Assembly (NCBI GenBank): GCA_943332855.1
Contig: CALQRA010000007.1
Location: 1-47,077 of the forward strand
DNA length: 47,077 nucleotides
Direction of reading: 5' to 3'
Source of the DNA: Candidatus Kuenenia stuttgartensis
GTDB lineage: Bacteria; Planctomycetota; Planctomycetia; Pirellulales; UBA1268
In this document: piece by piece, positions 16,098 to 27,433 of the stretch
Numbering within the stretch: position 1 is the stretch's first letter
Layout: each line of letters starts with the position of its first letter
Position numbers and translations under genes: made by a program
Notes under the pieces: generated by a model
Databases searched by the model: none
Seen by the model: only the letters and a program-made list of their open reading frames with translations
What the model was told of the DNA's origin: nothing

Positions 16098-17423
16098 ATG
16101 ACGGGCATGAAACATTCATCTCTCCCCACCGTGGCCCGCGTGCTCCTCCTTGCCTGCGCCGTCGCCGTGATGCCGGCCGGGCCCCTGCCCTCTCCATCGG
16201 CCCGCGCTGACGAGCCGGCAGCGCTTGCGATCCCCGACTCCGACGACGGCCTCCCCGGCGCCGGCCCGATCCGGCGCTCCGACTGGTTCCAGAACCTGTG
16301 GAAAGAGCGCCGCGGCGTTTGGGCCAGCAGGAAGGCTGCCGACAAGCGGGCCCTCGTGTTCCTCGGTGACTCAATCACGCAGGGCTTCGGTGACGATTTC
16401 CAGGGGGCCTTTCCTGGAGCGAAGCTCGCCAATCGCGGCATCAGCGGCGACACGACCCGCGGCATGCTCCTGCGCCTCGCCGACGATTGTCTGGCCCTCG
16501 ATCCCGCCGGCGTCGTCATGCTCATGGGCACCAACGACCTCGAGGAAGGGGCGGAGCCGGAGACGATCGCCGGCAATGTGAAGGCGATCATCTCGGCCAT
16601 CGAAGCGAAGAACCCGCGGACACCGATCATCGTCTGCCAGGTCTTCCCCAGCGCCGCCGACAAGAAGCGTCCGGCCGAGAAGATCAAGAAGCTCAACTCG
16701 CTGGTCGCCGAGCAGGTGAAGGGGGACCCGCGCGTCCGTCTCGTCGACACCTGGACACTTTTTGCCAACGGCGACGGCGACGCGAAGGTGGAGGATTTCC
16801 CCGATCTCCTCCATCCCAACGAGCTGGGCTATGCCAAGTGGGTGGCCGCGATCAGGCCGGTCCTCGAGACGCTCGATCTCGTTCCCACCCCCGCCGACGA
16901 TTTCCAGCCCGAACCCGGCTCCGAACTGCTCTTCAACGGCCACGACCTCACCGGCTGGGGCTACCGCGATCAGCCGACGCTCGGCAAGCAGCTCGATCTC
17001 GACGGCCGTGAGAGCAGCCCCGATGGCCGCTACGTTGCCAAGGATGGCCGGATCGTCGTCACGACCCCGCCGGAAGGGCGCCGCGTCGAGCAGCTCTGGA
17101 CGACGAAGGAGTTCCCCGGCAACTTCGTCCTCAAGCTCGAGTTCCGGGCCACGCCGACCGCCGACAGCGGCGTCTTCATCCGTGCCCCGCAACTCCAGTG
17201 CCGCGATTATCTGCTCGCCGGTCCCTACAAGGAGCTAAAGCACTACAAGCCCCAGGACTGGAACGAACTGGTGATCACCGTCATCGACGGCAAGGCCCTG
17301 TGCCTGTGCAATGACGACATCCTCGAAGTGGCGCTGCCGGTGCCTGAGACCGGCCCGATCGGCCTCGAAGGGGATTCTGGTCAGCTCGAATACCGGCGGA
17401 TCCGGATCTCCAAGCTCCCCTGA
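16098..17423 (+). CDS. Secreted SGNH/GDSL esterase fused to a DUF1080 (3-keto-disaccharide hydrolase) domain
   Basis: This 441-residue protein has a signal peptide (basic start, hydrophobic core, SARADE cleavage region near residue 38). The first domain (about 55-270) is an SGNH hydrolase: FLGDSITQG with the nucleophile Ser, NRGISGDTT, LMGTNDLEEG, and DLLHPNELGY with the Asp-His pair. It resembles planctomycete PAF-acetylhydrolase-like or acetylxylan esterases. The second domain (about 280-441) is DUF1080/concanavalin-like: LFNGHDLTGW, NFVLKLEFRATPTADSGVFIR, and the closing GPIGLEGDSGQLEYRRIRI. The fusion suggests combined deacetylation and processing of a polysaccharide outside the cell or in the periplasm. 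ATG 16107 is an equally possible start. It converges with the GT-C gene, 9 bp apart. Confidence 0.9.
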   Translation: MTGMKHSSLPTVARVLLLACAVAVMPAGPLPSPSARADEPAALAIPDSDDGLPGAGPIRRSDWFQNLWKERRGVWASRKAADKRALVFLGDSITQGFGDDFQGAFPGAKLANRGISGDTTRGMLLRLADDCLALDPAGVVMLMGTNDLEEGAEPETIAGNVKAIISAIEAKNPRTPIIVCQVFPSAADKKRPAEKIKKLNSLVAEQVKGDPRVRLVDTWTLFANGDGDAKVEDFPDLLHPNELGYAKWVAAIRPVLETLDLVPTPADDFQPEPGSELLFNGHDLTGWGYRDQPTLGKQLDLDGRESSPDGRYVAKDGRIVVTTPPEGRRVEQLWTTKEFPGNFVLKLEFRATPTADSGVFIRAPQLQCRDYLLAGPYKELKHYKPQDWNELVITVIDGKALCLCNDDILEVALPVPETGPIGLEGDSGQLEYRRIRISKLP

Positions 17424-17432
17424 CCCAGGGGT

Positions 17433-19106
17433 TCAGCGGCCACCCCGGCGCCAGGGGGCGAGGGTCATCGGATCCCACTGGGATGTCCGTTCGTCGGCGG
17501 CATCGAGTTGCGGCCCGCGCTCCCGGTAGCCGTGCTCCTCCATCGCCGTCCGGAGGTCCGACGGCGACACGTTTCCAGGATTGTCGAGGACGAGCGTCAC
17601 GACATCGTCGGCCGTCACCGTGCCAATGGCCGAAGCATCAGCGAGCGCGACGACGGGCAGGTCGGGGCGGAGATCGATCAGGTTGCGGAGCAGGAAACCC
17701 CGACGGAGGTCGTTGGTGACGACCGTTCCCGACCAGTCACAGGCCTTTGTCCAGGCTGTCGGCATGGCGGGCTTGAGGTCGAACGACTGATCGATGAGCC
17801 CCGGCCAACTCACGATCGATTGGAGCAGTTGCAGCGCCAGAGCGATGACGGCGAGGCGGGGGGGAACGAGATTGCCAACGGCGAGAACGAGAAACACCGT
17901 GGACAGCGGCCAGATGTACGAGAAATACTGCCCCCGGAAAGCGTGGGGGGGAGAGACCCCGGTGAGGTAGAGGATCGCCGTGAAGAGGACGAACCAGGCG
18001 AGTACGAGGGCATGACGGACCCTGGGGTCGTTCAGCGTCCACCCCCCCGAACCGTCCCCGGCAGCATCGCCCCGCCGCCAGGCGAGCCGGAGGCCACCGG
18101 CCACCGTCATGGCCGCCAACCCGATCGCATAGACCGGCCAGAGCGAACGCCAGAGCGTGAAATACTCAGCCGCACCGCGCGCCAGGAGTTTGACTCGCAT
18201 GGGAGCCATGGCGGCGAGGCCCTCCGCATTGCCGGCCACGGCGGGCCGCGCGGCGGCCTTCATCCGCAGGAACTCGAAAAACTCCGGGTAGAGGAGGAGA
18301 AAAATCGCGACCGCCACGGCCCCGGCGGCGAAGTACCGGCGAGTCTGCCCTCCGAGTCGATCGATCGCCAGCACCATGAGAGCCCCGGGCACCATCGTGA
18401 TGACGAAGAAATAGTGCGTCAGCATTCCGGCGGCGCACACCAGGCAGAACAGCACCGTGATCCACGGCGCACGCTCGCCGGCGATGATCCGATCCCCGAG
18501 TTCTAGCGCGAGGAGGACGAGGACGGCGAAGAGGGGGTAATGGCGGGTCTGGAACTCGATGCCCATCACGGCCGGGGCGCAGAACCACACCGCCGCACAG
18601 GCCAGCCCCACCCGATGGCTTCCCGAGAACCGCCGGCCGAGGCGGTAGACGAGCCCGAGGGTCACCAGGGCGATTGCCAGGTTGATCGCTGACTGATTCT
18701 GGGGCGTCAAGCCGAAGAGCACGTGCTGGACATGCAGGCCCCAGAAGAAGAGCGGTGGGTGGATGTCCGTCAGGGCCAGATCGCGGGCGACCGTCCGGAA
18801 GGCGAACGAGCCGGGCCGCTGCAGAAATGCCTGGAACTCCGCCGCCGGCACGGGGCGGTTCGCCAGACCGGGCAGCTCCGCGTTGAACCGCGACTCGCCG
18901 GCCGCCGCACAGAGCCATGCGATCGACTCGTCGTGCGTCAGGCCTTCCTTGACATTCGTCACGGCATGGATCCGCACGAGAAGCGCCGCCACGATGACCA
19001 GCCAGAGGAGCACCGCGGCAAAGCGTTCCTTCGCGGTGGACCCCTTGCGGGAGGATCGCGCCGGCGGTCCCCCGTCGCCGCGGGCGACTGTCGAACCATG
19101 GGTCAT
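17433..19106 (-). CDS. GT-C family membrane glycosyltransferase (PMT/ArnT-like)
   Basis: This 557-residue protein has about eleven hydrophobic segments. After the first helix comes the loop GLTHDESIAW, an acidic D-E pair placed as in GT-C enzymes, and later DIHPPLFFWGLHV, typical of the GT39/ArnT/DUF2723 group. GT-C enzymes transfer sugars from polyprenyl-phosphate donors to acceptors on the outer face of the membrane. The ATG at 19106 has GAGGAG seven nt upstream. It lies 51 bp after the DprE2-like gene on the same strand, so I infer it uses the polyprenyl-phosphate pentose made by the genes upstream. The acceptor is unknown. Confidence 0.78.
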   Translation of the reverse strand: MTHGSTVARGDGGPPARSSRKGSTAKERFAAVLLWLVIVAALLVRIHAVTNVKEGLTHDESIAWLCAAAGESRFNAELPGLANRPVPAAEFQAFLQRPGSFAFRTVARDLALTDIHPPLFFWGLHVQHVLFGLTPQNQSAINLAIALVTLGLVYRLGRRFSGSHRVGLACAAVWFCAPAVMGIEFQTRHYPLFAVLVLLALELGDRIIAGERAPWITVLFCLVCAAGMLTHYFFVITMVPGALMVLAIDRLGGQTRRYFAAGAVAVAIFLLLYPEFFEFLRMKAAARPAVAGNAEGLAAMAPMRVKLLARGAAEYFTLWRSLWPVYAIGLAAMTVAGGLRLAWRRGDAAGDGSGGWTLNDPRVRHALVLAWFVLFTAILYLTGVSPPHAFRGQYFSYIWPLSTVFLVLAVGNLVPPRLAVIALALQLLQSIVSWPGLIDQSFDLKPAMPTAWTKACDWSGTVVTNDLRRGFLLRNLIDLRPDLPVVALADASAIGTVTADDVVTLVLDNPGNVSPSDLRTAMEEHGYRERGPQLDAADERTSQWDPMTLAPWRRGGR

Positions 19107-19160
19107 CAAAGCACTCCTCGAAGGTTCAATCCCGAACGACCCCCTCCCGGCCCACCCGAG

Positions 19161-19934
19161 TCAGAGCTTGAGACGCTTGAAGATCGCCTCGGGGATCGCA
19201 CCGATCACCGTCATCACCGGCCACCAGAACCAGGGAGTGTAAACGACGTCCCGTCGCCGCAGGATGGCCCGCTCGATGTCCCGGGCGACAGTGTCCGCGT
19301 CGGCCGCCAGAGGGGAGCGTGCGGCCGCGAGCCCCTCGGTCATCGGTGTCCGCACGATCCCCGGCTTCACCGTGAGCACGGCGACGCCGCGGGGATGGAG
19401 CCGATTCCTCAACCCGGAGAGATAGGCCGTCAATCCGGCCTTCGCCGCGCCGTAGGTGTAGTTGCTCTGCCGCCCGCGATCACCGGCCACCGAGGAGATG
19501 GCGGCGAGAAACGCACCGGGCCGATCCTCGAGCGCCCGGGCCGCGGCGGCCAGAATCATCGCCGCCGACGTGAATCCGGCATCGATCGCGTCGCGGGTCT
19601 GCCCGACGTCGAGCAGGGCCCCCGACTCGTCGGGGAGCGTCCCGTGACAGACGATGATCCCGTCGGGCGGCGCGCCGAGCAGCGCCGCGGCAGCTCCGAA
19701 CAATCCCGCCACCGCCGCGCCGTCGGAGGGATCGAACACGAGCGTGGCGACGGTCCCGCTGCCGCGGACCCGCAGATCATCGGCGAGCGGGGCCAGCCGG
19801 GCCGCGTCGCGACCGGTGACCACGAGATTCCAGCCCCTCGCCACGAGCCTCCGCCCCAGCGGGCGTGCGATGCCCGACGTCGCCCCGACGAGGATCACAT
19901 TGCGGGGGTCATCCCGTTTCGGGGTACGGCTCAT
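19161..19934 (-). CDS. SDR-family oxidoreductase, DprE2-like (polyprenylphospho-2-keto-ribose reductase)
   Basis: This 257-residue Rossmann protein has the cofactor motif ILVGATSGIARPLGRRL, ISSVAGDRGRQ with the catalytic Ser, and YGAAKAG with the YxxxK pair. The C-terminus ends in a hydrophobic amphipathic stretch (TPWFWWPVMTVIGAIPEAIFKRL), as in DprE2 (Rv3791), which suggests membrane association. DprE2 reduces the 2-keto intermediate made by DprE1 to give polyprenylphosphoryl arabinofuranose. The ATG at 19934 has AGGAAA upstream, 37 bp after the DprE1-like stop. The pairing with the DprE1-like gene is the main reason for the specific call; alone it would be a general SDR. Confidence 0.82.
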   Translation of the reverse strand: MSRTPKRDDPRNVILVGATSGIARPLGRRLVARGWNLVVTGRDAARLAPLADDLRVRGSGTVATLVFDPSDGAAVAGLFGAAAALLGAPPDGIIVCHGTLPDESGALLDVGQTRDAIDAGFTSAAMILAAAARALEDRPGAFLAAISSVAGDRGRQSNYTYGAAKAGLTAYLSGLRNRLHPRGVAVLTVKPGIVRTPMTEGLAAARSPLAADADTVARDIERAILRRRDVVYTPWFWWPVMTVIGAIPEAIFKRLKL

Positions 19935-19971
19935 GAACAGTTTCCTGGAGCATTGGCTGGAGAGCGGGGCG

Positions 19972-21333
19972 TCAGGCGGGGGTGATCCCCAGGCGCCTCG
20001 ATTGGGAGGAGGCGAACAGGCCCACCGGGTCATACCGCCGCTTGACGGCGAGAAACTCATCGAGACGCGGATACATCGCCCGGAAGGTGGTTCCATCCAT
20101 GAGCGCGTCCTTGGCGAGGTAGAGACGGCCGCCATGCTCGAGGAGAATCCGGTCGAGACGGCCGCAGAGGGCCTCGATCACGCCCCGTCGGTAGGGGATG
20201 TCGAGGGCGAGCGTGTGCCCCGGCTCGAGAAACGACAACATCGCGTCATCGGCCGGCCCACAACTCTTGAGCACGGCGAGGAACGACGCGGCGCCGCTGG
20301 CCACGATCGTGGAGAGCAGTTCGCGGAGGCCGTCGAGCGACGATTTCCGGGGAAAGAATGCCTGGTACTGGATGAATCCACGGGGGCCATAGAGGCGGTT
20401 CCAATGACGGATGGAATCGAGCGGATAGAAGAATGTGTCGAGATCGACGACCTTGCGCCGATTTCCGTGCGCGGCGTAGAAGACTTCGTTGAAGACCCTG
20501 ACACTCAAGCTATTGAGGAGGCCCACCGGCGGCGTGAAGGGGACCGACTTCACCCTTTTCCGCGGCAGCCCGAACGGATCGCGCCGCGCCTCGGGCGACA
20601 GCTCGCCGAGCAGGGTGTTTCTCCCCTGCATCACGACGCTCCGCCCCATCGCCCGCCCCGAGGCCATGCAGTCGATCCAGGCCACTGAATGCTCGCTGCC
20701 GGCATCCCCGGACTCGAACACCGTCAGGGTCTCCTCAAGGTCGGCGGTGCGATGGTAGTCGACGGTCACGCGCGACGTCTCGACCCGCACGAGCCGGAAA
20801 CAGGCGGCCATGATCATGCCGGTGAGCCCCATGCCGCCGAGGGTGGCATGGAAGAGGTCCGCGTTCTCGCCGCGCGAACAGCGCACCACGGTCCCGTCGG
20901 CCACCATCACATCGATCCGCTCGACGAACATGCCGATCGACCCGTGCCGATGGTGGTTCTTCCCGTGGACGTCGGCCGCGATGGCCCCCCCGACAGTCAC
21001 GTACTTCGTTCCAGGCGTCGTCGGCAGGAACCATCCGCGCGGCAGGAAGAGGGCGATGATCTCGGCGAAACTGACACCGGCCTCGACGTCGAGGAGCCCC
21101 GATTGCGGATCGAAGCCCCGGAAGCGATCGATCCGCGCTGTCTCGACGACCGTGCCTCCCGCGACGAAGGCTGAGTCTCCATAGGCCCTGCCGAGCCCGC
21201 GGGCGATGATGCCGGCCCCGTGATCCCCCCCCAGGGCGCGCGCCATCCCCGCCCGGTCGGCCGGCGTCGCAACGACGGAGTCGCCGACGGGAAACCTCCC
21301 CCATCCGCTCAACGTCTGGGGAGCGGGGCTCAT
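19972..21333 (-). CDS. FAD-dependent oxidase, DprE1-like (polyprenylphosphoryl-ribose 2'-oxidase)
   Basis: This 453-residue protein has the FAD-binding_4 (VAO/PCMH) pattern: GRAYGDSA, LPTTPGTKYVTVGGAIAADVHGKNHHRHGS (residues 104-132; key HGKNHH), ADGTVVRCSRGENADLFHATLGGMGLTG. The C-terminal half has FFYPLDSIRHWNRLYGPRGFIQYQ, LEPGHTLALDIP and GGRLYLAKDA. These match DprE1 (Rv3790), including the Lys at 408 equivalent to Mtb Lys418. DprE1 oxidises the 2'-hydroxyl of polyprenylphosphoryl ribose. The residue aligned with the drug-reactive Cys387 of Mtb is Ala376. It overlaps the HAD-UbiA gene by 4 nt and precedes the DprE2-like gene. Confidence 0.88.
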   Translation of the reverse strand: MSPAPQTLSGWGRFPVGDSVVATPADRAGMARALGGDHGAGIIARGLGRAYGDSAFVAGGTVVETARIDRFRGFDPQSGLLDVEAGVSFAEIIALFLPRGWFLPTTPGTKYVTVGGAIAADVHGKNHHRHGSIGMFVERIDVMVADGTVVRCSRGENADLFHATLGGMGLTGMIMAACFRLVRVETSRVTVDYHRTADLEETLTVFESGDAGSEHSVAWIDCMASGRAMGRSVVMQGRNTLLGELSPEARRDPFGLPRKRVKSVPFTPPVGLLNSLSVRVFNEVFYAAHGNRRKVVDLDTFFYPLDSIRHWNRLYGPRGFIQYQAFFPRKSSLDGLRELLSTIVASGAASFLAVLKSCGPADDAMLSFLEPGHTLALDIPYRRGVIEALCGRLDRILLEHGGRLYLAKDALMDGTTFRAMYPRLDEFLAVKRRYDPVGLFASSQSRRLGITPA

Positions 21334-22808
21334 GCCGCCACCCCCCCTCGCACCAGGCCCGCGATGATCACGAGGCAGAAACAGACCCCGGCAATGCAGA
21401 GACTGACCCGGTCACGGATGGCGAAAACCACAGGATCCTCGTCGAGATGACCGCGGTGGACAAGGAGCCAGACGCGGGTGATCCAGTAGAGCACCAGCGG
21501 ACAGATGAGCCAGAGGAGCCGACTCTCCCCGTACAGCGCGTGCATTTCGGGGCTGTTCATGTAGAGCGCGAGGACGAGCACCGACACGTAGCCACTGGCC
21601 GCACCGAAGCCCTCGAGGATGGGAAGATCCTCGACGAGATAGCCGCGCCCCGCTGGCCGATGCCCCCCTTCGGAGGCGTGCCGTCGGAGCTCGGCACAAC
21701 GCTTGGCAAACGCCAATGATGTGAAGAAGAAGAGCGAAAAAGCGAGGATCCACATACTCAACGGCACACCGGCCGCGATCCCGCCGGCCTCGACCCGGAC
21801 GGCATACATCCCCGCGAGCATCAGCACGTCGAGAATCGGCTTCCGCTTCAGCCAGGTGGAGTAGGCGAGGTTGGTGGCCATGTAGGCCACGAGGATCAGG
21901 CCAAAGGCTGGCGCGAGGGCGATGGCGGAGATCATGGCGGCCCCGAGGAGCAGCCCCGCCCCGGTGGCGACGGCCCAGGTGATCGGCAGTCGGCCGCTTG
22001 CCAAGGGGCGGTGACGCTTCTTGGGATGCTCCCGGTCGGCAGGCAGATCGGCAATGTCGTTGACGAGATAGACCGTCGAGGCACAGGCGGAGAACGCCAC
22101 GAATGCCCAGATCGCCGCAGTGATCGTGGCGACGTCGAACTTGTGCGCCAGGATCATCGGCAGGAAGACGAGGAGATTCTTGACCCATTGATGGGGCCGC
22201 AGTGACCGGAGGAGCGACCGTGGAATACTCCGACGTTCCCCGATCACCTCGACGGGCTTGCCAAGCTCGCGCACGCGGCGCTCCAACCCGGCAGTCGGCT
22301 CGACGACGATGACCCGGTCCGCCGCCCGCCACAGGGGGATATCGGCGGTCGCATCTCCCGCATAGGAAAAACCGTTGCAGCCGTTCGCCCGGACCCAATC
22401 GGTGACCGCCTGGAGTTTCCGTGCCCCCTTGAGATTGACCCCCGCATGGGAAGCGAGGACGGCGTCGAACAGCCCCAGATCGGCCGAGATCCGCGCTGCC
22501 ACGCTCTCGTGGGCCGCCGTCGCCAGCACCACAGGATTCCCGGCGCGCCGGGCCTCCGCGATCAGCCTCTCGGCCTCCGGGCGGACCGGCCAACGCGTCC
22601 AGGAATCGAGAGTGGCAGCCGCCACGTGCCCCTTGCAGGAGGACCGCCCCGCAGCGAGCCAGACGAGCACCTGTGGAATCATCCAGGGCCGGCCGAGGAG
22701 CAACCTCGTCAGGCTCTCGCCAAACACGTCGGTGGTCAGCAGGGTGCCGTCGAGATCCCAGACGCTGGCTGTTTTCGCATCAGGGCGTGGCGTCCGGGGT
22801 TCATTCAT
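21330..22808 (-). CDS. HAD phosphatase fused to UbiA-family prenyltransferase (polyprenyl-phosphate phosphoribosyltransferase-like)
   Basis: This 492-residue fusion has an N-terminal HAD domain (about 14-190) with motif I DLDGT (18-22) and motif IV GDATADIPLW. The C-terminal UbiA membrane domain (about 200-490) has eight or nine helices, the Asp-rich motif NDIADLPADREHPKKRHRP (250-268), and a second acidic loop, VHRGHLDEDPVVFAIRDR. This second form matches Rv3806c, which attaches PRPP to decaprenyl phosphate. The product carries a 5-phosphate that must be removed; the fused HAD domain is a plausible phosphatase for that step (inference). It starts 24 bp after the PfkB-type gene and overlaps the DprE1-like start. 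Confidence 0.87.
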   Translation of the reverse strand: MNEPRTPRPDAKTASVWDLDGTLLTTDVFGESLTRLLLGRPWMIPQVLVWLAAGRSSCKGHVAAATLDSWTRWPVRPEAERLIAEARRAGNPVVLATAAHESVAARISADLGLFDAVLASHAGVNLKGARKLQAVTDWVRANGCNGFSYAGDATADIPLWRAADRVIVVEPTAGLERRVRELGKPVEVIGERRSIPRSLLRSLRPHQWVKNLLVFLPMILAHKFDVATITAAIWAFVAFSACASTVYLVNDIADLPADREHPKKRHRPLASGRLPITWAVATGAGLLLGAAMISAIALAPAFGLILVAYMATNLAYSTWLKRKPILDVLMLAGMYAVRVEAGGIAAGVPLSMWILAFSLFFFTSLAFAKRCAELRRHASEGGHRPAGRGYLVEDLPILEGFGAASGYVSVLVLALYMNSPEMHALYGESRLLWLICPLVLYWITRVWLLVHRGHLDEDPVVFAIRDRVSLCIAGVCFCLVIIAGLVRGGVAA

Positions 22809-22832
22809 GGCCTCGGAGTATAGCCTTGATGA

Positions 22833-23804
22833 TCAGGTTTTTCCGCCGGCCACGGCGATCCGGGCGATTTCCACCGAGCCCGACAGGCGATCGACCGCCG
22901 ATCGATCCAGACGCCCGGCGAGGAGGGTGCCGCAGTTGAAGCTCGCGCAGGCCATACCGAAGCGGATTGCCTCGAGGGGATCCCGGCCGCGGGCGATCTG
23001 ATCGGCAATTCCCGCGGCGAGGCAATCGCCGCAGCCGATCGGATTGATGACGCGCTGGGGGCGCGGTGGCACGACGTGAAACCAGCCCGACGGACCGAGC
23101 AGGATCGCGGGCTTCGCCCCATCGGTGACGAGCACCCATTCGGCCCCCCGCTCCCGAAGCGATTCCATGGCGGCGCGGAGATCGACCTCGCTTCCGAGCG
23201 GACGGCCGACCGTTCTGGCCAGTTCTTCCCGATTCGGCTTCACAAGCAAAGGTCGGCAGGAAAGTGCCGCGACGAGCTCCGGGCCGCGGGCGTCGACGAT
23301 CGCCGGACAGGGGGTACGTTCGAGGAGGTCGCGGTAGATCGTCGCGGGGGTGCCGGCGGGGAGCGATCCCGAAAGCACGACCGCGGCGGCCCCCGCCACC
23401 GCCCCCTCGTAGGCCGACACGAACCGGGCCAGTTCCTCGGGGGTGATCGGCGGGGCATTCTCAACGAGCTCCGTAGTCCGCCCCGTGGCATCATCGAGGA
23501 GCGTCGTGCAGCAGCGGGTGTCGGCGGCGATCGGCACGGCGACAAGCTCGATTCCAAGCCCTGCCAACTCCACCGCCGTCCATCCGGCGGCCGCCCCCCC
23601 CATCACCGTCACCGCTCGGCATCCGCCCCCGAGGGTGGCCAGCGTCACCGCGACATTGAGCACCTTGCCACTGGCGCCGCGCCACACCTCGCTGGCCCGA
23701 TTAACCTCCCCGGCTTCGAGCGACGCAAACCGCATGATCGTCTGCCAGGCGGGCGACAGCCCGGCGGCCACGACGGGGCTGGAGGGAGAAAGATCGGGTG
23801 TCAT
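22833..23804 (-). CDS. PfkB-family carbohydrate kinase (FruK/LacC-like)
   Basis: This 323-residue kinase has the PfkB first-motif region GASGKVLNVAVTLATLGG and MGGAAAGWTAVELAGLGIELVAV. It also has VLSGSLPAGTP, LVKPNREELA, and the ATP/anion-hole motif NPIGCGDCLAAG with the catalytic Asp. The wording is closer to 1-phosphofructokinase/tagatose-6-phosphate kinases than to ribokinase. A TTG at 23837 is an alternative start; I chose the ATG at 23804. It is the first gene of the arabinofuranose-like cluster (24 bp before the HAD-UbiA gene). It could feed sugar phosphate into it, but may simply be co-transcribed. Confidence 0.8.
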   Translation of the reverse strand: MTPDLSPSSPVVAAGLSPAWQTIMRFASLEAGEVNRASEVWRGASGKVLNVAVTLATLGGGCRAVTVMGGAAAGWTAVELAGLGIELVAVPIAADTRCCTTLLDDATGRTTELVENAPPITPEELARFVSAYEGAVAGAAAVVLSGSLPAGTPATIYRDLLERTPCPAIVDARGPELVAALSCRPLLVKPNREELARTVGRPLGSEVDLRAAMESLRERGAEWVLVTDGAKPAILLGPSGWFHVVPPRPQRVINPIGCGDCLAAGIADQIARGRDPLEAIRFGMACASFNCGTLLAGRLDRSAVDRLSGSVEIARIAVAGGKT

Positions 23805-24261: not shown

Positions 24262-24424
24262 TGCCCCCCCGAACGGATCCGAGGAAGACCGTCTTCCCGA
24301 CGAATGGGCACCCCCGACCGTAGTCGATCGAGCCCCGATCGTTCGATACTTTCCGCCACGGGCGTCCTGCCCGCGCGGGTGTCCCGTTTCCGATGTTCCT
24401 CCGGGCAGCGCCGTGTCGTCGCCA

Positions 24425-26089
24425 ATGATGAAACACCGCAACAGCCTGTTTCGCGACGACTTGGTTCGTGACAGCCTGTTTCTCGTCGCCACGTTGATCG
24501 TCCTCTTCGGGCCATTCATCATCCATGGGGGCTTTCTCCGGGATGACCTCGGGTTGCTGGCTTATCCACCCCGGACCACGACGTATCGGCACTATCAGGC
24601 TCTCATGTCGAGCCAGCCGACGATGACGGGTCGCCCCGTGTCGGCTTTGATGCACGGCATCTGCGGTTGGACCTTCGGAACGACCGCCTGGCCGTACCAC
24701 CTCGTCAATCTCACGCTCTTCGGCACGACGGTGCTGCTGGTGTTCCACGCCCTGACGCGGATCCTCCCGCGGCGGGTAGCGCTCATGACTGCCTGCTTCG
24801 CCATCGTCTATCCGTGTGCCGCTGGCTCCGTCTACTCCTCGATCATGATGAACTCGAATCTGGCTGGCTGCTGCTGGGCAGGCTCGCTCCTCATCGGCAC
24901 GTTGCCCGGGTGGTCGCTCTGGAGGGGGCCGGCTTCGGCAGCGCTTCTGCTCCTCTCGGCGCTGTCGTACGAGGCCTTCGTACCGCTCTTCCTCACGACC
25001 GTCCTCGTGCGGTACCGGATCGCTCCGCTCCAATCGCTTTCGTGGCGCGGCGTCATCGGCCCGATAATTCCCGTCGTTGCCGCCCTCCTTCTCTATGGCG
25101 TGTACCACGCGGCCATCGAGCCGGTCCTGTTCGGCGCCTCGTATTCGAGGGTCTCCATCCCCGTGCCGGCAGAGCTCGCGCGGAGACTCCTCAGCGCTGC
25201 TTTCTGGGGGACGAAAGTCGCCGGCATCGACTCTCTGCGAATCACAATCAAGTCGATCCGGTACGTCACGGCGCTGCCCGTCGCCACGCTACTGATGCCG
25301 TCACTCTGGCTTGTCGTCATCGGCTCTCTCCTCGTCAGCGCGTTCTCATCCGGGGCTACCGATGCCCCGTCCCCGGAGGCACTCCCGGGCGACGGCCCGC
25401 AGGGAACGACGGCGGTCACGATTCGGCCCGGCGCGCAGATGCCACTGATCGGCTGCCTGGTGTTCCTGACGGCGCAGACGATTTTTGTCTTCTCCGACTA
25501 CACCCCGCAGTCCTGGGGCTTTGAAAACCGCACGCAGGTGGGAGTGCGATTCGCCATCGCCTTTCTTGTCGCCGTCTTGGTCGACCGCCTCCTCCGGCTT
25601 CCTGGCAAAGCGAGCTGCCGATGGGTCGCCATGGCCGCGATCGCGCTGCTGGGATCGTTCTTCCTGGCGATGGTGGCGCAGCGGGAGGCGTGGATCGCGG
25701 CGGCCCGCTTCAACGACCGGTCACTCCACCGCGTCGAGCGGGCGATCCGCGCCCACGGCCTCGATCGGGGCCCCGCGCTCACGATCCTGACGGCACTCCC
25801 GGCGTCGTTCCCCGGTCAACTCAACCACGAGCCGATCTTCGGTGTCTCGTGGGACATCGGGGCAGCGCTGTCGCTGGCCTTTCCGACGATCGACATCCGG
25901 GCGAATGTCCCGGTTCCGACACGGACGGTTGTCAGCGACGAGGGGGTGACGATCGATCGCACCTGGGTCGCCACGTTTCCGTTCCACGTCTATTCCGACG
26001 AGACTGAATCCATCCAAACGATATCGTCGTCGGACGAGTGGCGCCGCCTGAGCACGCCACGGGCCGTCGGAGAAACAGGCGATCGTTGA
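24425..26089 (+). CDS. Polytopic membrane protein, probable GT-C-like glycosyltransferase
   Basis: This 554-residue protein has about ten hydrophobic helices. The first helix is followed by GGFLRDDLGLL, an acidic pair placed as in GT-C transferases, and then a loop with TGRPVSALMHGI. The last ~110 residues (from about 440) are a soluble domain with NDRSLHRVERAIRAHGLDRGPALTILTALP. No specific family is recognised with certainty; related planctomycete proteins are usually annotated as hypothetical membrane proteins. A GTG at 24413 lies just upstream in frame; ATG 24425 and 24428 are alternatives. It converges with the acyltransferase gene and together they suggest surface glycan assembly and decoration. 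Confidence 0.68.
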   Translation: MMKHRNSLFRDDLVRDSLFLVATLIVLFGPFIIHGGFLRDDLGLLAYPPRTTTYRHYQALMSSQPTMTGRPVSALMHGICGWTFGTTAWPYHLVNLTLFGTTVLLVFHALTRILPRRVALMTACFAIVYPCAAGSVYSSIMMNSNLAGCCWAGSLLIGTLPGWSLWRGPASAALLLLSALSYEAFVPLFLTTVLVRYRIAPLQSLSWRGVIGPIIPVVAALLLYGVYHAAIEPVLFGASYSRVSIPVPAELARRLLSAAFWGTKVAGIDSLRITIKSIRYVTALPVATLLMPSLWLVVIGSLLVSAFSSGATDAPSPEALPGDGPQGTTAVTIRPGAQMPLIGCLVFLTAQTIFVFSDYTPQSWGFENRTQVGVRFAIAFLVAVLVDRLLRLPGKASCRWVAMAAIALLGSFFLAMVAQREAWIAAARFNDRSLHRVERAIRAHGLDRGPALTILTALPASFPGQLNHEPIFGVSWDIGAALSLAFPTIDIRANVPVPTRTVVSDEGVTIDRTWVATFPFHVYSDETESIQTISSSDEWRRLSTPRAVGETGDR

Positions 26090-26185: not shown

Positions 26186-27223
26186 TCAAACCTGCTTGAG
26201 GTTCATCAGGCTCGCGCGAAACTGGCGGAGATCGGCCGGAAAGACAATCCCCCGGAGCCGCGGCAGCCGGGAGATGAGGCGGCCGAGGCTCCATGCGATC
26301 GCAATCGTGGCTGTCGCGACCACCGCACCGCCTGCCCGTACGCCCAACACACTGTCCGGTTTCAATTTCAGCAACGCGTAGAAAACGAGCGTGTGGAACA
26401 AGTAGATCGCGAGCGACTCGCGTCCGAGGATCACAAACACCCGTTCGACCGAACGGGGAAGCGGCAGCCCACGGATCGCAAAAAAAGCCGACAGTAAAAA
26501 TCCATCGACTGCCAGGAGATGAAGGGGGGAATCGATACCGGGCACCGCATTCAACGACAAATCACAGAAGTAACCGGCTTTCCAGACCCATCCACCAAAG
26601 AGGAGGGCAAGCAGAAATGCCGGCACGAACCGCGTGATCCGGGCATCCCGCATCCAGAGTTCACGGGCTACCGCCGCCGGAAAGAGCATGAAACCAGCCG
26701 CCGGCATGAACCATGGCACTCCCGCGAGCCATTCGCGAGGAAGACACCCGATCGAGGCGTGACACACCGCAGTGATCAACATTCCCGCCCACGGCCCCAG
26801 CCGCCTTTGCAACGAGTCGAAGACCGTGAAACAGATCAGACTGGGCAGAAACCACAACATCAACACTCCCGATACGGATTTGATGGAATCCGCTGTCGGC
26901 ACCACCAGACTCGTGACGTAATCGCGGAGCGTGTCCTCGGGACTTCGCCCGCCGGCAACCATCAAGAAAAAGACGGTCGAGTAGAGCGAGAGAAACAGGA
27001 CGTAAGGAACGTAGTACCGAAAGGATTTGTCGGCGAGTTTGCGTCCATCGGAGGGATGCCTCGACAGGCACGCCGAGAGGAGAAAAAAACCTCCGACGTG
27101 GAAGCAATAGAGGATCCTGTACAGTTCCGGCACGAAGGACGTGATCAGGAAGTTGTGGCCGACCACGATCAGGACGATCAACACGCCTTTGATCTTATCG
27201 ATGGTCATCGATGAATCCGACAT
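26186..27223 (-). CDS. Acyltransferase 3 family membrane protein (OafA/NolL-like)
   Basis: This 345-residue protein has ten predicted helices. The first carries IDKIKGVLIVLIVVGHNF, whose IKG...VVxGH pattern with the catalytic-type His is the acyltransferase-3 signature, and FHVGGFFLLSACL follows soon after. FVILGRESLAIYLFHTLVF near the end matches the closing family motif. These proteins move acetyl or similar groups onto sugars of surface glycans or lipids. The ATG at 27223 has GGGAGCAGG upstream; longer in-frame starts run into non-conserved sequence. It lies 210 bp downstream of carB on the same strand. Confidence 0.85.
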   Translation of the reverse strand: MSDSSMTIDKIKGVLIVLIVVGHNFLITSFVPELYRILYCFHVGGFFLLSACLSRHPSDGRKLADKSFRYYVPYVLFLSLYSTVFFLMVAGGRSPEDTLRDYVTSLVVPTADSIKSVSGVLMLWFLPSLICFTVFDSLQRRLGPWAGMLITAVCHASIGCLPREWLAGVPWFMPAAGFMLFPAAVARELWMRDARITRFVPAFLLALLFGGWVWKAGYFCDLSLNAVPGIDSPLHLLAVDGFLLSAFFAIRGLPLPRSVERVFVILGRESLAIYLFHTLVFYALLKLKPDSVLGVRAGGAVVATATIAIAWSLGRLISRLPRLRGIVFPADLRQFRASLMNLKQV

Positions 27224-27433
27224 CGTCCTGCTCCCCGGCGATAAAGGCGGGTGCCGTCCCCTCACTCCGACGTGATCGTCCATCCTTCCTTCTTCCCGGT
27301 CGCCCCAGTGGGGAGGAAGTACGTGGCCAGGAACGCCGGCCGGTCGGCATCGAGCCCCACTCCGCGACGCATCGCCCCCCCTTTTCTCGGACCAGACTCC
27401 CGCCCGTTTTGCCGGCGGATGGACAGCCACCCT

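Follow-up and report, generated by a model that had tools for sequence, protein, structure and literature searches.

The window analysed here is a stretch of 47,077 nucleotides from a draft planctomycete genome (contig CALQRA010000007.1); the draft is 4.9 Mb in size and 91% complete. On the minus strand, at 17433-22808, the window carries a cassette of four genes. Their products are a fusion of HAD and UbiA domains, an FAD oxidase of the DprE1 type, an SDR of the DprE2 type and a GT-C-like polytopic protein. The HAD-UbiA gene is single-copy in this genome. The cassette and its flanking genes are:

16098-17423, plus strand: GDSL/3-keto-disaccharide hydrolase-domain protein; flanking gene, convergent with the cassette.
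17433-19106, minus strand: GT-C-like polytopic membrane protein, 557 aa from the ATG at 19106; Pfam PMT_2, hydrophobic segments and motifs.
19161-19934, minus strand: DprE2-type SDR, 257 aa; best PDB match to DprE2, S-Y-K residues and tree.
19972-21333, minus strand: DprE1-type FAD oxidase, 453 aa; full-length match to M. tuberculosis (Mtb) DprE1, residues and tree.
21330-22808, minus strand: HAD-UbiA fusion, 492 aa; NCBIfam PRK08238, DPPRS structure match and catalytic residues.
22833-23804, minus strand: PfkB-type sugar kinase; flanking gene outside the cassette, with orthologues in DprE1-less relatives.

The preliminary description listed five same-strand genes here, with one 4-nt overlap and gaps of 24-51 bp. 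This layout was confirmed, and the family assignments are beyond chance. From PfkB to GT-C the intergenic distances are 24, -4 (an ATGA overlap), 37 and 51 bp, and they are near-identical in three congeners. The likely starts are ATG 23804 for PfkB, ATG 19934 for the SDR and ATG 19106 for GT-C. The longest PfkB ORF begins at TTG 23837, and an alternative GT-C start lies at 19109; the TTG starts given for PfkB and GT-C in the ORF list are not conserved in congener G001. Comparison with congeners places dN well below dS for every gene at the locus, and the cassette genes are under purifying selection.

The five ORFs had been taken to imply one functional unit, a reading which does not hold for PfkB. 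Full-length PfkB orthologues are found in congeners and in family members lacking DprE1, and in five genomes (G002, G005, G008, G011 and G029) an empty gap of only 44-100 bp separates PfkB from the convergent GDSL gene. In G000, G001, G003 and G009, the HAD-UbiA, DprE1, SDR and GT-C genes occupy exactly this slot. Given how narrow the spacing is in the five relatives, the cassette comes and goes as a block of four genes, and PfkB is a conserved neighbour. Its conservation in genomes without the cassette also rules out PfkB as a member of the pathway, for example as a pentose kinase feeding PRPP. In the GDSL and PfkB trees, G001 is not grouped with the other three carriers, which implies repeated gain or loss, or else recombination. 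The data suggest that the slot between PfkB and GDSL is an exchange site for glycan genes.

In G007 (locus L129, G007:C68, 4225-6628) the slot holds an unrelated ORF of 528 aa which matches no family, and a gene with a weak match to glycosyltransferase family 29 (GT29, sialyltransferase-like). This insert was considered as a counterpart of the cassette GT-C and rejected, as the two are not homologous. The interval between PfkB and CarB also varies. In the window it contains a polytopic membrane protein without a family match (24413-26089, plus strand) and an acyltransferase-3 protein (26186-27430, minus strand). G001, G002, G005, G008 and G011 have instead a gene for a protein of ~1380-1420 aa, the G002 copy of which contains ThuA, DUF7133 and cytochrome c domains; G009 has transposases and a YhcG-type nuclease.

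The first cassette gene encodes a protein in which an N-terminal HAD domain (residues 16-159) precedes a UbiA domain (218-462). It matches PRK08238 of NCBIfam with 573 bits (cut-off 351), and the next best models are those for decaprenyl-phosphate phosphoribosyltransferase. An alignment of the UbiA half with M. tuberculosis DPPRS (solved structure 8j8j) scores 120 bits, and the two have the motif VYLVNDxxDxxADREHPxKRxRP in common. In the HAD domain, D18 (the nucleophile, in DLDGT), D20, the K in NLKGARK and the GDATAD motif are kept; in the UbiA domain, the NDxxDxxxD residues N250/D251/D254/D258 and R370/E373 of loop IV are all present. Ribosylation of farnesyl-P from PRPP and subsequent dephosphorylation have been demonstrated for Citrobacter ORF15, in which D18, N247/D248/D251/D255 and R366/E369 are the counterparts of the planctomycete residues (PMC11127046). 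The planctomycete fusion is predicted to attach Ribf-5-P, taken from PRPP, to polyprenyl phosphate and then to remove the 5'-phosphate.

The oxidase scores 472 bits against the NCBIfam DprE1 model, and the runner-up family scores 66. It matches solved Mtb DprE1 over its full length with 345 bits; the next structure, xylitol oxidase, reaches 46. The NCBIfam score is below the equivalog cut-off of 500 for DprE1, which is passed by none of the sampled planctomycetes (392 genomes); this cut-off seems to have been calibrated on the actinobacterial branch. Across 116 aligned family members, Y60, H132, K134, W230, K367, D389 and K418 (Mtb numbering) do not vary and Q334/Q336 hardly do; the planctomycete oxidase retains all nine. 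The position of Mtb Cys387 is occupied by Ala (Ala376; codon near 20206-20208, minus strand), as in 104 of the 116 aligned relatives, and Cys is present in a single row, that of M. tuberculosis. Cys387 is the residue attacked by benzothiazinones and is dispensable for activity (PMC6128881). Given the prevalence of Ala, covalent inhibition of the benzothiazinone type should for the most part affect the mycobacterial branch only. In the tree the oxidase lies inside the DprE1 family, and the branches between this family and the remaining planctomycete FAD oxidases are long and have full support. The protein nests in a mostly planctomycete set of 14 rows (SH-aLRT 99), within a large group that also contains proteobacterial sequences. 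The oxidase is predicted to act on the 2' position of polyprenyl-P-ribose.

The best PDB match of the SDR is DprE2 in the DprE1-DprE2 complex, with 82 bits against 54 for the next structure, and the catalytic triad S148-Y161-K165 is kept. It scores under the NCBIfam cut-offs both for DprE2 (149 vs 250) and for PRK07102 (264 vs 267). In the SDR tree, the generic SDRs, FabG among them, make up a single group with full support; opposite it lie Mtb DprE2 and nearly all SDRs encoded next to DprE1, and the cassette SDR is grouped with these, away from the FabG-type enzymes. The exception is a set of five deep planctomycete SDRs adjacent to DprE1, which are found on the generic side of the midpoint root. 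The cassette SDR is a predicted 2'-keto reductase that would yield polyprenyl-P-arabinofuranose.

The preliminary description regarded grouping with unrelated alditol oxidases and SDRs as evidence against its assignment; both redox enzymes group with DprE1 and DprE2. Pfam gives only general FAD_binding_4/ALO and adh_short domains, and on this basis the pair could be read as an alditol or lactone oxidase and a generic reductase, unrelated to arabinose donors. This reading is extremely improbable, as both trees speak against it, and so do the NCBIfam scores, the PDB matches and the conservation of the neighbourhood; the trees rule out both the alditol-oxidase and the generic-SDR identity. It is also improbable, if less so, that the product is a different pentofuranose, with the donor staying as ribofuranose or being epimerised at another carbon. 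Versions of the pathway for Ribf and Xylf, with a different SDR epimerase, do exist (PMC11127046), and the planctomycete oxidase and SDR are distant from the characterised mycobacterial enzymes. However, almost every residue that lines the DprE1 active site is conserved, and the Xylf version has a single GalE-like SDR, whereas Araf systems have DprE1/E2 pairs (PMC11127046). The route to an arabinofuranose donor proposed earlier, from PRPP through polyprenyl-P-ribose to polyprenyl-P-arabinofuranose, is backed by the family scores and phylogeny as well as by the catalytic residues and the order of the genes. The donor steps follow from the strong homology and the kept catalytic residues, and polyprenyl-P-D-Araf is very probably what these enzymes make.

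The GT-C-like protein matches Pfam PMT_2 with 30.8 bits (cut-off 26.1) and has many hydrophobic segments, with D60-E61 in the loop directly following TM1 and an HPPL motif at 117-120. No PDB sequence match was obtained up to E=1 and no PHROG match was found; AlphaFold2 models of it, one based on an alignment of seven divergent rows and one on the single sequence, have a mean pLDDT of only 42-44. The GT-C assignment, made from sequence features, is moderately supported, and the protein is predicted to transfer a sugar outside the membrane. Among congeners it changes at the protein level about two to three times faster than the oxidase. Its near relatives are confined to the genus and remote ones are scattered through the phylum.

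Transfer of D-Araf outside the membrane by this protein is fairly probable. PMT_2-type GT-Cs use several lipid-phosphate sugars, and it is conceivable that the donor is made while the GT-C uses another one, or that a lipid or small molecule, and not a surface glycan or protein, receives the arabinose. Distant GT-C homologues are present in planctomycete genomes without a listed DprE1 and on other contigs. Since the family also occurs away from DprE1 genes, it does not fix the donor. Related genes of Azorhizobium arabinosylate a lipo-chitooligosaccharide (PMC2443382). Against such a use of another donor or acceptor, which is unlikely, the GT-C gene is gained and lost together with the donor genes as one block, and homologues found by profile adjoin donor genes in unrelated phyla. 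A profile trained outside DprE1 loci gave five matches at E<=0.001 among DprE1 loci and their neighbours, and four of these directly adjoin donor genes, in other phyla; this supports a link without fixing the donor. For the membrane transferase proposed earlier, the PMT_2 score above cut-off, the motifs and the homologues beside DprE1 modules give moderate support, and the donor is not fixed by them.

There is no flippase gene within the cassette. Possible flippases were searched for by family (GtrA, SMR and MATE). No cassette-bearing genome yielded a GtrA protein, and SMR was not found in any of ten genomes, carriers included; as the carriers are drafts of 63-92% completeness, these absences are strong only when taken together. 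MATE proteins are present in all genomes examined, unlinked to the cassette. Emb-type arabinosyltransferase (PF04602) is absent from all 10 genomes, in a search whose control detected C. glutamicum, and arabinan synthesis of the Mycobacterium type is ruled out by this absence. LpxC is present in all genomes examined, which makes LPS a possible acceptor.

In the probable interpretation, the four genes are exchanged as a block between PfkB and GDSL and serve D-arabinofuranosylation beyond the cytoplasmic membrane. The UbiA domain would load Ribf-5-P from PRPP onto polyprenyl phosphate, and the fused HAD domain would strip the 5'-phosphate. The DprE1-type oxidase and DprE2-type SDR would then invert C2 via a 2'-keto intermediate, giving polyprenyl-P-D-Araf, which an unlinked transporter would flip. 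GT-C would finally move Araf to a lineage-specific acceptor, perhaps the O-chain of LPS, a different envelope glycan or a secreted protein. The earlier interpretation stands in large part, with PfkB left out of it, and D-arabinofuranose in a surface glycan or glycoprotein, as the preliminary description suggested, is a reasonable expectation. It is possible, though doubtful, that the GT-C founds a new family of D-arabinofuranosyltransferases whose acceptor is a surface glycan or protein specific to planctomycetes, and that the flippase is of a kind new to the pathway (neither GtrA nor SMR).

The DprE pathway is best known as a tuberculosis drug target. The mycobacterial decaprenyl-P-arabinose pathway (Rv3806c, Rv3807c, DprE1/DprE2, Rv3789, Emb/Aft) has the donor chemistry predicted for the cassette, and the cassette encodes clear homologues of Rv3806c, DprE1 and DprE2. 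Mycobacteria have a separate phosphatase, Rv3807c, whereas the planctomycete HAD domain is fused; unlike mycobacteria, the planctomycete carriers have no Emb, GtrA or SMR detected by family search, and Cys387 of DprE1 is Ala. Pilin arabinosylation in Pseudomonas aeruginosa is similar in that genes for a polyprenyl-P-Araf donor are found in a Gram-negative organism, and in O-glycosylation outside the cytoplasm, which for the planctomycete is a prediction. It differs in its pilin acceptor and in a separate phosphatase, used in place of a HAD fusion (PMC11127046).

The general scheme for lipid-P-pentofuranose, with HAD-UbiA fusions and with DprE1/E2 in Araf-containing systems, was published in 2024 under the name 'three-component' systems; HAD-UbiA chemistry and a correlation of Araf with DprE1/E2 genes were shown (PMC11127046). 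These systems (Citrobacter youngae ORF12-15; GT136) resemble the cassette in the domain order and catalytic residues of HAD-UbiA, in having a GT-C partner and in the lipid-P-pentofuranose donor, and their Araf versions carry DprE1/E2 (PMC11127046). They differ in having a MATE flippase gene, which the planctomycete cassette lacks, and no solved structure matches the planctomycete GT-C by sequence. In Azorhizobium caulinodans, four consecutive genes, noeCHOP, are involved in D-arabinosylation of the Nod factor, and noeC, noeH and noeO were proposed, from their likeness to mycobacterial enzymes, to synthesise the D-arabinose precursor (PMC2443382). The likeness, drawn from the published description, lies in four consecutive genes that include those for a D-arabinose precursor. 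The Azorhizobium genes end a nod operon and have the Nod factor as acceptor, whereas the planctomycete cassette ends with a lineage-specific GT-C. The type of pathway is thus already known from Mycobacterium, Azorhizobium, Pseudomonas and the three-component systems, and the planctomycete cassette is a solid new example. New are the GT-C restricted to the genus, the precisely defined empty site and the lack of a flippase gene in the cassette. The planctomycete occurrence may be undescribed in the open-access papers searched, where a text search gave a single paper, on algal plastids. It adds to the DprE pathway a planctomycete with precise presence and absence at genus level, and direct comparison of cassette-positive with cassette-negative congeners would be a way to look for the sugar, the acceptor and the flippase.

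Modules of the DprE1 type are common. Within 6 kb of 80 DprE1 loci from many phyla, an SDR gene of this type is found at 70, a UbiA gene at 61 and a GtrA-like flippase gene at 37; the HAD-UbiA fusion is present at 35 of the 80. Matches to the DprE1 model at E<=1e-60 occur in 84 of the 392 sampled planctomycete genomes, or about a fifth. Some Planctomycetaceae (L003, 10370-12310; L004, 2332-4263) have a DprE1-like gene followed by one for a polytopic protein of 643-646 aa, with no DprE2-type SDR adjacent at these two loci; the L003 polytopic protein has no family match. A deep, well-supported planctomycete branch of DprE1-like proteins (L162-L167), with its own branch of adjacent SDRs, lies outside the group containing M. 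tuberculosis, and its substrate may differ.
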